In this document: positions 4,999 to 8,586 of the stretch, in pieces
Layout: every line of letters starts with the position of its first letter
Position numbering within the stretch: the first letter of the stretch is position 1
DNA from: Tumebacillus algifaecis
GTDB lineage: Bacteria > Bacillota > Bacilli > Tumebacillales > Tumebacillaceae
Direction: 5' to 3'
Length of the DNA stretch: 64,000 bases
NCBI RefSeq assembly: GCF_002243515.1
Contig: NZ_CP022657.1
Coordinates: forward strand, 2,223,001 to 2,287,000
The notes under the pieces: generated by a model
What the model was told of the DNA's origin: nothing
Database searches by the model: none
Seen by the model: the letters and a program-made list of their open reading frames with translations, nothing else
Made by a program: the position numbers and the translations under genes

Positions 4999-5505
4999 AT
5001 GAATCAAGTTGCGGAGCGGATTATATCGACGTTGTTAGATAATGGATATCGTGCGTTTACTGGTGTCCCATGCTCATTGCTTAAGGGCGCCTTTCGCTTG
5101 TTGGAGGAGGAGATGCGACAAGAGAAACCGCGCTTGCGCTATGTGAGCGCAGTGCGTGAAGATTCGGCACTGGGGCTGGCAGCTGGGATGTATCTGGGTG
5201 GTGAGAAGACTGTGGTGCTGATGCAGAACTCCGGTTTGGGCTATTGTCTAAACGTTTTGACGTCGATGTCTTTGATCTACGATATTCCCAACCTGATGGT
5301 GATCTCGTGGCGTGGAGCGGAAGGTATGAATGATGCGGTGGAGCATGACATCATCGGTGAACGCCTGCTCCATGTGTTGGACGCGGTGGGCATCACCTAT
5401 GTGCTGTTGGACCCGGAGACGCCAGAAGCGAGTGTGGAGGCGTGTTTGCATCAGATCGAGGAATTGCATAAGCCAGTAGCTCTGTTAATTCGACAAGCGG
5501 TGTGA
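4999..5505 (+). CDS. TPP-dependent decarboxylase alpha subunit (phosphonopyruvate/sulfopyruvate type)
   Basis: The 168-residue pyrimidine-binding half of a thiamine-diphosphate decarboxylase, like the alpha chains of sulfopyruvate decarboxylase (ComD) and split phosphonopyruvate decarboxylases. The cofactor-activating Glu is seen in AVREDSALGLAAG, and MQNSGLG and SWRGAEG match the family. Such enzymes decarboxylate a 3-phosphono-, 3-sulfo- or related 2-oxo acid to the aldehyde. It is the first gene of a tight five-gene operon; the beta chain starts 5 bases after its stop. No PEP mutase or sulfolactate gene is present here, so the substrate is not defined. Ribosome site GAAGGGGA precedes ATG 4999. 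Confidence 0.82.
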   Translation: MNQVAERIISTLLDNGYRAFTGVPCSLLKGAFRLLEEEMRQEKPRLRYVSAVREDSALGLAAGMYLGGEKTVVLMQNSGLGYCLNVLTSMSLIYDIPNLMVISWRGAEGMNDAVEHDIIGERLLHVLDAVGITYVLLDPETPEASVEACLHQIEELHKPVALLIRQAV

Positions 5506-5510
5506 GGTGA

Positions 5511-6065
5511 ATGATGATGAAGATGAAAGATGCGATGAAAGCGGTGTTGGATCGATACCCGAATGCACTCTATGTGAGCACTTGTGGATATATATCACGG
5601 GAATTATTCAATCTGCATGATAGCGAAGATCATTTTTATATGCTGGGGTCGATGGGAATGGCAGCACCGGTTGGATTGGGGTTGGCACTGACTCATCCCG
5701 AGCGTACGATCGTCGTGCTGGACGGCGACGGCTCCTTCATGATGAACCTTGGCATCATTGCGATGATCACCTCGGAACAGCCGCAGAATTTGGTGCATGT
5801 CGTGCTGGATAATCGGCTGTATGAAAGCACAGGCGGGCAGAAACCTGTGCAGTTTGAAAACATGGTAGGCGTCGCTGTTGCGGCCGGATACCGCCATGCT
5901 GTGCATGTGCAGGAGGAAGCCGATTTTGGGAAGCTGGACGGTCTGGCTGGGTTGACGTTTGTACAAGCCTTGATCGAGCCGCGCACAGAGCCGATCGGCA
6001 AGCGCATCAAGTGGACGCCACAGGAGCTCGTGGAGCGGTTTCACACGGCGGCAGGAAGAGGGTGA
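5511..6065 (+). CDS. TPP-dependent decarboxylase beta subunit
   Basis: The 184-residue diphosphate-binding half that completes the preceding subunit. It has the TPP/Mg motif GDGSFMMNLG followed about 25 residues later by LDNRLYESTGGQ, the signature stretch of phosphonopyruvate and sulfopyruvate decarboxylases (LDNxxxxSTGGQ). Three ATGs in a row begin the frame; ATG 5517 has the best spacing from GAGGTGA (5504-5510), so the true start may be two codons downstream. Catalyses, with the alpha chain, non-oxidative decarboxylation of a 2-oxo acid; which one is unknown. Confidence 0.82.
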   Translation: MMMKMKDAMKAVLDRYPNALYVSTCGYISRELFNLHDSEDHFYMLGSMGMAAPVGLGLALTHPERTIVVLDGDGSFMMNLGIIAMITSEQPQNLVHVVLDNRLYESTGGQKPVQFENMVGVAVAAGYRHAVHVQEEADFGKLDGLAGLTFVQALIEPRTEPIGKRIKWTPQELVERFHTAAGRG

Positions 6066-6070
6066 GTTCG

Positions 6071-6883
6071 ATGAATGTAGTCAAGATTGGAGGGAGTTTG
6101 CTGACCGATAAGGACGGCTACTGTGCGCCGAATCAGGAGATGGTGCGGCAGTATGCGCGCACGATCGCCAAGGAGTGGGAGCGGCTGCGTGGCAACTTGA
6201 TCCTGATCGTCGGCGGAGGCTCGTATGGGAATGCAGTGCCGGTTCGCTATCACTTGAAGGATGCTTCCCTGCCGTGGAAAGATACGGACCTGTCGATGAT
6301 GACGGTGAAGATGTTTGAGTGGTTGTCGCTGGTGACCCAGATTTTTCGGGAAGAGGGAGTGCCTTGCTATCCGTTCCAGACCAGCGGGTATGTGGTGACG
6401 AAAAACAAACGGCCCCAGCGTTTTTTTGTGGAGCCGGTGGAGCACGTGCTGTCGATGGGGGTGCTGCCCGTTTTCTCGGGCGACCTGGTCTTTGATGAGG
6501 AGCAGCAGTTTATCATTTTTTCGAGTGATAATTTGCCCGAGTTGTTTGTCGAGCGGATGTCTCTCCGGCGGATGGTGATGCTGACCGATGTTGAGGGAGT
6601 GATGCAAATCGGAACGGATGGGCAGCAGACGGTGATTCCTGAAGTGACGCGTGCAAATTTTCAGGAGGTGCTGCGCTGTGCGGGGCCTTCGCAAAAGCCG
6701 GATATCACAGGCGGAATGAAAAATAAGCTGGAAGCTCTGTTGCGCTTGGCGGAGCAGGGAGTGGAAGGTGTGATCACCAGCGGAAGGAAGGCGGAGGCAT
6801 TGCTGCCAGCGTTGTTTGAGCCCGAGCCTGTAGGCACGATGATTCGGCCTTGGGCACAAGAGAATAGAGGGGGATTGCTGTAG
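6071..6883 (+). CDS. Amino-acid-kinase-fold kinase (isopentenyl phosphate kinase/FomA-like)
   Basis: A 270-residue kinase with the fold of isopentenyl phosphate kinase and the fosfomycin kinase FomA: VKIGGSLLTDK at the N-terminus, LIVGGGSYGN, MLTDVEGV and the C-terminal DITGGMKNKLEALL stretch typical of IPK (DVTGGM). The catalytic histidine of IPK, just before the glycine-rich loop (HGGGSFGH), is replaced by Val and the loop ends in GN, so the substrate may not be isopentenyl phosphate. It phosphorylates a phosphate, phosphonate or similar acid by inference. It starts 5 bases after the decarboxylase beta stop and abuts the next kinase gene. Confidence 0.75.
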   Translation: MNVVKIGGSLLTDKDGYCAPNQEMVRQYARTIAKEWERLRGNLILIVGGGSYGNAVPVRYHLKDASLPWKDTDLSMMTVKMFEWLSLVTQIFREEGVPCYPFQTSGYVVTKNKRPQRFFVEPVEHVLSMGVLPVFSGDLVFDEEQQFIIFSSDNLPELFVERMSLRRMVMLTDVEGVMQIGTDGQQTVIPEVTRANFQEVLRCAGPSQKPDITGGMKNKLEALLRLAEQGVEGVITSGRKAEALLPALFEPEPVGTMIRPWAQENRGGLL

Positions 6884-7528
6884 ATGTTGATTGCGTTTTC
6901 GGGATGTGACGGGGCAGGTAAGAGCACGCAGGTGAAGGCGGTTCAGCAAATCTTGCAGGAGCGCGGGCTGCAGGTGAAGGTGCTGGATAAATGGGAGATT
7001 CGGGATCATGAGAAGTTTAGAGAGTGCCGCATGATCAACATTGAGCTGGAAGATTTGAAAAATGCGGTCGGGGAGATGGAAGGGCACAGTCGAGCGATGT
7101 TTTTGTTCTGGGCGATTGGGATCACGATGACGCGGGACGATTTGGATGACCCGAACGTCGTGTATTTGCTGGACGGGTACTGGATGAAGCATGCGGCGGT
7201 GGAGATTGAGTATGGGTGCTCGCCAGAGTGGATTGAGCTGACGGCGCAACAGTTTCGCCCGGCCGATCTGACGTTTTATTTTGATGTGTTGCCGGAGGTG
7301 GCTTTGGAGCGGAAGGATGATTTTAATGTCTATGAGTGCGGGCGGGACCCGGAATGTCGGCCGGAGTCGTTTATCGAGCACCAGACCAAGTTGCGCAAGC
7401 GGATGCTGCAGTGGTCGGAGCGGTTTGGCTGGGAAGTGGTGAATTCGATGCAAGAGCAACAGGCGATCACCGAGCTTGTGATGAAGCAGGTGGATCAGCT
7501 GCTTGAGCAGAACAAGGGCCAGAGCTAG
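6884..7528 (+). CDS. Thymidylate-kinase-like P-loop kinase
   Basis: A 214-residue P-loop protein with Walker A GCDGAGKSTQ and overall dTMP-kinase organisation. The usual DRY/S substrate motif is DGYWMKHA, and the central region is diverged, so it is unlikely to be housekeeping Tmk. It begins directly after the preceding kinase stop (TAG-ATG), with GAGGGGGA as ribosome site. Two kinases of different folds in one operon suggest two successive or alternative phosphorylations of a pathway intermediate; that is inference. Confidence 0.75.
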   Translation: MLIAFSGCDGAGKSTQVKAVQQILQERGLQVKVLDKWEIRDHEKFRECRMINIELEDLKNAVGEMEGHSRAMFLFWAIGITMTRDDLDDPNVVYLLDGYWMKHAAVEIEYGCSPEWIELTAQQFRPADLTFYFDVLPEVALERKDDFNVYECGRDPECRPESFIEHQTKLRKRMLQWSERFGWEVVNSMQEQQAITELVMKQVDQLLEQNKGQS

Positions 7529-7547
7529 ACGTTGAAGGGTGGCGAAG

Positions 7548-8408
7548 ATGGTGAAGAGAATCGGCTGGATTGGAACCGGGGTGTTAGGTTCTGCTGTGGT
7601 CGCAAGGCTATTGGAACGGGGTTATGAGGTAGTTGTGTATAACCGGACCGTACAGAAAGCTGAGCAGTTGGGCGTTGCGGTCGCGAGTTCGCCTCGGGAA
7701 TTGGCTGAGACGTGTGATCTGTTGTTTTTGTGTGTGAAAGGTCAAGACGCGGCCGAATCGCTGCTGTTCGATCCCGAGCGTGGCGTAGTGGCCAGTGGTC
7801 GCAAGGGGCTGTGCGTGATCGATATGAGCACCGTGGCTCCGGAGTTCGCCGTTTCGTTGCATCAGCGATTGGAGGCGGCTGGACTTGATTATCTGGAAGT
7901 CCCGGTCTCCGGCGGGCGCGAAGGAGGGCGCAAGGGCACGCTTGGGGCGCTGGTCGCAGGTCGGGAAGAAGTGTTTGCACAGCAGCGCGATGTGTTAGGT
8001 GAACTGACGAGCAAGCTGCTGTATGTGGGAGAAGGCGGAAAAGCGCAACTGCTAAAAGTCTTGAACAACTTGGCGGAGAGCATTCATATGCTGGCGGCGG
8101 CTGAAGTGGCGGCGATCGGGAAACAGGCTGGGCTCGATCTAACGTTGATGCATGAGGCCCTCTCTTCAATGCGCGGCTATTCAACGTATATGGGCGTGCT
8201 GTTTGAACGGTTGATCAATCCAAGTGATGTGGTATCGACCTCTTTGGCGGTCAGGATCAAAGATTTGGATTTGGCCCATTCGTTGGCCGATCAATTCGAT
8301 GTTTCGATCCCGATGGGGGCGCTGGCTGAGCAGTTGTTTAAGCTGGCGGCGCAGCAACAAGGTGCCGCTCGCGACCAGACCGAATGTGTGAAACTCCTGC
8401 TGCCCTGA
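7548..8408 (+). CDS. Beta-hydroxyacid dehydrogenase family oxidoreductase
   Basis: A 286-residue NAD(P)-dependent enzyme of the 3-hydroxyisobutyrate dehydrogenase family. Rossmann motif GTGVLGSAV at residues about 8-16, the substrate stretch DMSTVAPE, EVPVSGG, and the catalytic lysine region GKAQLLKVLNN are all visible. ATG 7548 is preferred (AAGGGTGG 6 bases upstream) over GTG 7539. As last gene of the operon it may reduce the aldehyde made by the decarboxylase, by analogy with phosphonoacetaldehyde reductases in phosphonate pathways, although those are often iron alcohol dehydrogenases. Succinic semialdehyde, glyoxylate or tartronate semialdehyde reductase are alternatives. Confidence 0.8.
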   Translation: MVKRIGWIGTGVLGSAVVARLLERGYEVVVYNRTVQKAEQLGVAVASSPRELAETCDLLFLCVKGQDAAESLLFDPERGVVASGRKGLCVIDMSTVAPEFAVSLHQRLEAAGLDYLEVPVSGGREGGRKGTLGALVAGREEVFAQQRDVLGELTSKLLYVGEGGKAQLLKVLNNLAESIHMLAAAEVAAIGKQAGLDLTLMHEALSSMRGYSTYMGVLFERLINPSDVVSTSLAVRIKDLDLAHSLADQFDVSIPMGALAEQLFKLAAQQQGAARDQTECVKLLLP

Positions 8409-8513
8409 TCCTTTTTCGTTGCTGGTGCGAGAACGATTTCAGCCTCTGGAGCTACTACCAGTTGTTACGATAGATCGTTTGTGTCATGTCCTACATGCTG
8501 ACCGAAACAAAAG

Positions 8514-8550
8514 CTGCCCTCTTTGTGTAAAGCAAAGAGGGCAGTCCTTT
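8514..8550. terminator. Strong hairpin after the operon
   Basis: CTGCCCTCTTTG (8514-8525) pairs perfectly with CAAAGAGGGCAG (8533-8544) around 7 nt. The plus-strand tail is TCCTTT and the minus-strand tail TTTTGTTT, so it may work on both strands. Confidence 0.65.
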
Positions 8551-8559
8551 GTATGCGGG

Positions 8560-8586
8560 CCCTTGCTAAGCGAAAGGGTTTTTTCT
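8560..8586 (+). terminator. Second rho-independent terminator
   Basis: CCCTT (8560-8564) pairs with AAGGG (8574-8578), with an inner GC pair step, followed by TTTTTT. It backs up the hairpin 16 bases upstream. Confidence 0.65.

Follow-up and report, generated by a model that had tools for sequence, protein, structure and literature searches.

A five-gene operon of Tumebacillus algifaecis with a RhiEF-type decarboxylase and two kinases, probably part of a phosphonate pathway

We analysed a 64,000-nucleotide stretch of the Tumebacillus algifaecis chromosome (NZ_CP022657.1, positions 2,223,001 to 2,287,000; hereafter the window), in which five open reading frames (ORFs) on the + strand form an operon at positions 4999-8408 (locus A). 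The genes nearly abut, with gaps of 0 to about 19 bp. An earlier note, made from the sequence alone, had described five abutting or overlapping genes with no known pathway. Their placement and families are borne out by the ORF coordinates and by family searches, while the lack of a pathway is not: the decarboxylase, the reductase and the first kinase are related to characterised proteins of phosphonate biosynthesis (RhiEF, Psf3 and FomA, respectively). The genes are the following.

4999-5505, + strand: alpha (PYR-domain) subunit of a predicted split phosphonopyruvate decarboxylase, RhiE-type; N half of a thiamine pyrophosphate (TPP) enzyme
5511-6065, + strand: beta (PP-domain) subunit, RhiF-type; C half of the TPP enzyme, with GDG and LDN...STGGQ motifs
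6071-6883, + strand: small-molecule kinase of the amino-acid-kinase fold (AA_kinase family), FomA/isopentenyl phosphate kinase (IPK) group, with an ATG start
6884-7528, + strand: thymidylate-kinase-like P-loop kinase with the thymidylate (dTMP) kinase fold and the signature DGYWMKH...YECG
7548-8408, + strand: Psf3-type reductase of the beta-hydroxyacid-dehydrogenase family (NAD_binding_2/11, 3-hydroxyisobutyrate-dehydrogenase-like), with an alternative GTG start at 7539

Enzyme families of the operon

The two subunits of the split enzyme shared one outstanding match among solved structures, 9iz3_A for alpha (208.7 bits, runner-up 37 bits) and 9iz3_B for beta (196.7 bits, runner-up 46 bits). 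PDB 9IZ3 is RhiEF, the characterised heteromeric phosphonopyruvate decarboxylase of rhizocticin biosynthesis (PMC12141560). As in RhiEF, there are two separate subunits that align over their full length and carry the TPP and STGGQ motifs, in a genome with a phosphoenolpyruvate (PEP) mutase (PDB 9IZ3/9IZ4; PMC12141560). The LDN...STGGQ signature that the earlier note had read in the decarboxylase is indeed present. In the family alignment, alpha Glu54 and QNSG are invariant, and the invariant TPP and loop residues comprise E54, D71-G74, N101 and S106-Q110.

Split relatives of the pair were found in PEP mutase clusters (L045-L048, L059 and L060). Four Streptomyces genomes hold the pair within such clusters, and in two other Bacilli genomes it lies close to a PEP mutase gene, at 59-60% (the alpha subunits) and 50-52% identity to the operon's pair. 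A check of co-occurrence, suggested in the earlier note, places alpha and beta with a PEP mutase in Streptomyces as well as in other members of the Bacilli. The two Bacilli loci have one aldolase-like gene between the pair and the PEP mutase and look like a rhizocticin-type cluster; the pairs of L059 and L060 adjoin aldolase-like and threonine-synthase-like genes, whereas the operon has a reductase and kinases downstream. The alpha/beta enzyme is a close relative of RhiEF and, judged by its sequence, a predicted phosphonopyruvate decarboxylase.

The top PDB match of the reductase was 5u5g (177 bits), which we take to be Psf3, a dehydrogenase from the fosfomycin pathway of Pseudomonas; the entry is labelled only '6-phosphogluconate dehydrogenase'. 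This identification rests on neighbouring Psf4 entries and on PMC8719888. The catalytic Lys/Asn block of the reductase, GKAQ..KVLNNL, is common to the Priestia and Salinibacillus genes described below. A search of three Tumebacillus genomes, run without a positive control and hence a weak negative, found no HppE-like protein. Because the genus gave no HppE match, the substrate of the reductase likely differs from 2-oxopropylphosphonate, and fosfomycin is not expected as the product; we considered it as the Tumebacillus end product and judged it unlikely.

From these families the earlier note had drawn a route of decarboxylation, reduction and two phosphorylations towards a phosphonate-, sulfonate- or phosphate-bearing molecule. 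Its phosphonate version is in keeping with the RhiEF, Psf3 and FomA relatives; its sulfonate version fared poorly. Read as a sulfonate operon, the five genes would include a ComDE-like sulfopyruvate decarboxylase, formed by the split pair, and a reductase for sulfolactaldehyde or a similar compound, and both subunits do match sulfopyruvate decarboxylase models (E-values 5e-33 and 7e-44), as the reductase matches sulfolactaldehyde reductase (1e-28). However, the subunits miss the cut-offs of TIGR03845 and TIGR03846 (114.2 vs 147.95 and 150 vs 221.5 bits), RhiEF is far closer, and the pair has relatives within PEP mutase clusters. The sulfonate or coenzyme M reading was rejected on the missed cut-offs and the RhiEF match, and we regard it as very improbable.

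Among solved structures, FomA (3d40, 111 bits) is the nearest to the first kinase, ahead of IPK (86 bits), in agreement with the kinase having been called reminiscent of fosfomycin-type kinases. Its loop, GGGSYGN, has Asn at the position of the catalytic His, and the PDB match and alignment confirm that the histidine of IPK is missing, as previously noted. The Asn is common to all five Bacillota sequences in the alignment, and His is found in FomA and all actinobacterial relatives. The protein is 48% identical to the kinases of the PEP mutase operons of Priestia and Salinibacillus; a plasmid search with it returned only distant relatives. An in-frame GTG at 6011 is an alternative start, which would overlap the preceding gene.

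The second kinase has an intact P-loop, and its AlphaFold model (pLDDT 92) has dTMP kinase as the top fold match (TM about 0.78), although its score lies below the dTMP kinase cut-off TIGR00041 (36.1 vs 83.25 bits). It defines a family of its own, DGYWMKH...YECG, with 32 invariant positions in a 22-sequence alignment, DGYWMKHA and EC among them. A scan of our genome collection gave 23 loci; the other 11 genomes of the order lacked the gene, and among 400 genomes sampled from the class no further one carried it. A PEP mutase match of at least 280 bits was obtained for 18 of the 22 genomes encoding the family, which ties the family strongly to phosphonates. We infer that the enzyme is the second, phosphonate-monophosphate, kinase.

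PEP mutases and the proposed pathway

The earlier note had recorded PEP mutase as absent. For the window this may hold, but the genome does encode the enzyme. Searching the 4.52 Mb chromosome (one contig) with PF13714 gave two strong matches, both above the equivalog cut-off of TIGR02320 (324.0 and 324.4 vs 319.55 bits) and both with the EDKxxxxxNS signature. PEP mutase 1 lies at C1:2703338 (locus B), about 475 kb from the operon. T. avium and a third Tumebacillus genome also keep both loci, A and B, at a similarly large distance from each other; the mutase is not clustered with the operon in the three Tumebacillus genomes, but in Priestia and Salinibacillus it is clustered with the pathway genes. 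The enzyme families, the genomic PEP mutase, the conservation of both loci in three species and the occurrence of kinases, reductase and PEP mutase in one operon in two genera were read from sequence.

PEP mutase 2 belongs to a further operon (locus C, described below), and it too passes the cut-off, so that it might be the enzyme that feeds the operon in place of PEP mutase 1. Against this, the other two operon-bearing Tumebacillus genomes yielded no locus C, and the locus has likely pulling enzymes of its own (2-hydroxyacid dehydrogenase, phosphoglycerate kinase (PGK) and glyceraldehyde-3-phosphate dehydrogenase (GAPDH)). When the loci were compared, PEP mutase 1 was the best match for the mutases of the Priestia and Salinibacillus operons. 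A supply from PEP mutase 2 is very unlikely. That the operon serves a phosphonate pathway is very probable, and that it is locus A of such a pathway, kept at two places on the chromosome, is in our view the probable overall explanation.

For the substrates, the sequence of reactions, the phosphorylated position and the end product, we propose the following. The PEP mutase of locus B would convert PEP to phosphonopyruvate. The equilibrium of this reaction needs a pulling step, and usually a decarboxylase drives the pathway (PMC12871164); here the RhiEF-type pair would form phosphonoacetaldehyde and pull the unfavourable equilibrium forward, a decarboxylation that we consider highly likely. The Psf3-type reductase would then yield 2-hydroxyethylphosphonate, which is reasonably likely. 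Finally, the FomA-group kinase may phosphorylate the phosphonate group and the dTMP-kinase-fold enzyme may add a second phosphate onto that phosphoryl group, much as FomA and then FomB convert fosfomycin to its mono- and diphosphate (PMC4790336); such serial phosphorylation is slightly favoured. The phosphorylated forms would be a masked, self-protected product or activated intermediates, and the nucleotidyltransferase and second kinase-like gene of locus B are candidate users of the phosphorylated compound. The mutase and decarboxylation steps appear well supported by homology, while reduction and phosphorylation are what we infer.

Several points weigh against this pathway. The link between loci A and B is one of conservation and homology, not of linkage. 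Psf3 acts on a ketone, and we extrapolate from it to an aldehyde substrate. To our knowledge, 2-hydroxyethylphosphonate does not call for self-protection, so that some tailoring step beyond those named is expected. We know of no assayed member of the dTMP-kinase-like family and of no characterised enzyme with Asn for His in such a kinase active site. Four of the 22 genomes with the second-kinase family have no clear PEP mutase, so the family is not strictly tied to phosphonates. The first kinase, moreover, falls below the FomA cut-off (112.8 vs 550 bits), as it does below a second NCBIfam cut-off for FomA/FosC-type fosfomycin kinases (84.9 vs 350 bits), and it passes the NCBIfam IPK cut-off NF040647 (145 vs 120 bits). 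The last score would suit a genuine isopentenyl phosphate kinase in an operon of unrelated genes, but the catalytic His is missing, FomA is the closer solved relative, and the order kinase-kinase-reductase is kept in three genera, in two of them beside a PEP mutase; we give this explanation hardly any credence. The first kinase is a member of the FomA/IPK group that can be filed neither as FomA nor as IPK.

Each catalytic step of the proposed phosphonate pathway has a known relative; what is novel is the combination of a RhiEF-type decarboxylase, a Psf3-type reductase and a two-kinase module over two distant loci. Phosphonates, small molecules with a carbon-phosphorus bond such as the antibiotic fosfomycin, have yielded many antibiotics and herbicides. 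Genome mining by PEP mutase assumes that the pathway adjoins the mutase, and since the decarboxylase, the reductase and the two kinases lie roughly half a megabase from it in all three species, such mining would miss most of the Tumebacillus pathway. The DGYWMKH...YECG signature offers a sequence handle for phosphonate clusters and for the generality of the double phosphorylation known from fosfomycin producers.

The two kinases in other bacteria

Priestia flexa and Salinibacillus kushneri have the unbroken order kinase, dTMP-kinase-like gene, reductase and PEP mutase, so that the trio stands in the same order beside a PEP mutase in two other genera. Like the co-occurrence of alpha and beta, this runs counter to the lack of co-occurrence that the earlier note had named as a refutation. 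Upstream lie a homocitrate-synthase-like gene, a gene for a 248-residue protein and a cupin whose top PDB match is the epoxidase Psf4. The 248-residue protein had no Pfam or PDB match; we suspect it to be the oxidative decarboxylase of the psf route. The two loci (L010 in Priestia, L009 in Salinibacillus) are psf-type fosfomycin-like clusters, and apparently represent fosfomycin-related biosynthesis in Bacillota.

With the psf pathway of Pseudomonas syringae (Psf3, Psf4, FosC) the Tumebacillus operon shares a Psf3-type reductase and a kinase of the FomA/FosC group, and with the psf-like operons of Priestia and Salinibacillus also the dTMP-kinase-like gene and the gene order. It differs in having a RhiEF-type decarboxylase in place of the homocitrate-synthase-like early step, and in the missing match to an HppE-like epoxidase. 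The FomA/FomB pair of Streptomyces likewise joins two kinases, the first of the amino-acid-kinase fold, to a phosphonate pathway (PMC4790336), in that case with the catalytic His where Tumebacillus has Asn. Streptomyces genomes with FomA were also sought as a route to FomB, and none of those searched had a protein above the FomA cut-off.

Many PEP mutase loci of actinobacteria contain both kinases, and genes for a 2-hydroxyacid dehydrogenase and a PGK-like enzyme often take the place of the decarboxylase there. The phosphonate-nonribosomal peptide cluster of Streptomyces sp. I6 (PMC6346202; L025) shares with Tumebacillus the PEP mutase, the dTMP-kinase-like and FomA-like kinases and an NTP_transf_5-like protein, and differs in its 2-hydroxyacid dehydrogenase and PGK-like enzyme (the valinophos type of route) and in having no decarboxylase. 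A profile made from the NTP_transf_5 proteins found a relative in 22 of the second-kinase loci, some with weak scores, and in several the NTP_transf_5-like gene is directly upstream of the dTMP-kinase-like gene.

The recurrence of both kinases and an NTP_transf_5-like protein in clusters of very different core chemistry is what a shared tailoring module would give, and phosphonate pathways commonly employ nucleotidyl activation (PMC6697681). The kinases could be biosynthetic: their phosphorylated phosphonate would be activated for coupling to a further building block, for which the NTP_transf_5 protein of locus B is a candidate, and the pathway would end in a phosphonate conjugate. Conservation over clusters with different products fits a resistance module too, however; the best-studied relative, FomA, is a self-resistance kinase (PMC4790336), and NTP_transf_5 is unlike the known phosphonate cytidylyltransferase families. 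We rate a biosynthetic role of the kinases as rather unlikely. With somewhat less reserve, yet still tentatively, we suggest that the two kinases and NTP_transf_5 form a general module that makes phosphonyl mono- and diphosphates from varied phosphonates, possibly then nucleotide-linked, and that has spread between Bacillota and Actinomycetota among differing pathways; in Tumebacillus it would be joined to the RhiEF-Psf3 route, with a new phosphonate as end product.

This conserved module appears to be undescribed: a limited search of open-access papers found no description of it. In the same literature, phosphonopyruvate with thymidylate kinase returned one unrelated paper, and Tumebacillus with phosphonate biosynthesis returned none. 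Where the genome has no clear PEP mutase (L011, L021, L024 and L027), the DGYWMKH-family members are possibly resistance genes or enzymes with a different substrate.

Operon signals, neighbours of PEP mutase 1 and locus C

Of the signals ascribed to the operon in the earlier note, the paired terminators were recovered.

8513-8545, + strand: strong intrinsic terminator with a 14-bp stem, detected by the scan on both strands
about 8560-8584: second hairpin with a T tract, seen by eye

The single promoter was not: a scan upstream of the first gene found no recognisable sigma-70 promoter with paired hexamers (a TATAAT lies at about 4960). Codon counts against the 30 other ORFs of the window agree with the enrichment in GAT (0.71 vs 0.51), TTT (0.79 vs 0.61) and GAG (0.67 vs 0.44) that had been seen by eye. 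The strongest bias is for G over C at third positions, where the excess is 0.36-0.57 in four of the five genes, above the top background gene (0.354), and 0.33 in the fifth. It is smaller in the operon genes of T. avium, where it exceeds that of the downstream rhodanese/metallo-beta-lactamase and nonribosomal peptide synthetase genes but not that of the preceding MFS gene. Such atypical codon usage is compatible with horizontal transfer without proving it.

Around PEP mutase 1, locus B holds a different thymidylate-kinase-like gene, a divergent NTP_transf_5 gene, an MFS exporter and an XRE-TPR regulator. XRE-TPR regulators adjoin the PEP mutase genes of both Tumebacillus (L003:11948-13222) and Priestia (L010:11220-12530), and are possibly of the peptide-sensing type. 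Upstream of PEP mutase 1, at L003:9374-10003, lies a repetitive ORF in which a unit (like MSMYSCVYITRPLRMSLKYGSSITSLRSMLCTSFQLNLG) occurs about three times; the ORF is probably repeated non-coding DNA and not a gene.

Locus C, a separate operon around PEP mutase 2, lies outside the window at C1:149415-158984 (L004:5416-14984). It comprises genes for a pyrE-like phosphoribosyltransferase, a 270-residue protein, a type II (archaeal-type) GAPDH, a transaldolase/fructose-6-phosphate aldolase, RpiA, the PEP mutase, a D-2-hydroxyacid dehydrogenase, PGK, phosphoribosyl pyrophosphate (PRPP) synthetase, Rpe and an EamA transporter; the PGK and PRPP synthetase are extra copies in the genome. The locus was not found in the two sister Tumebacillus genomes, and its third-position GC content is 0.46-0.57, against 0.65 in the window. 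Its 270-residue protein (L004:6076-6888) had no Pfam match, and in the 400-genome sample of the class a convincing match occurred in this genome only. The gene set mirrors the route from 3-phosphoglycerate through pentose phosphate and PRPP to orotidylate, with phosphonate replacing phosphate, and a nucleotide-like phosphonate is therefore predicted; of the two pathways in this genome, that of locus C is possibly the more unexpected.

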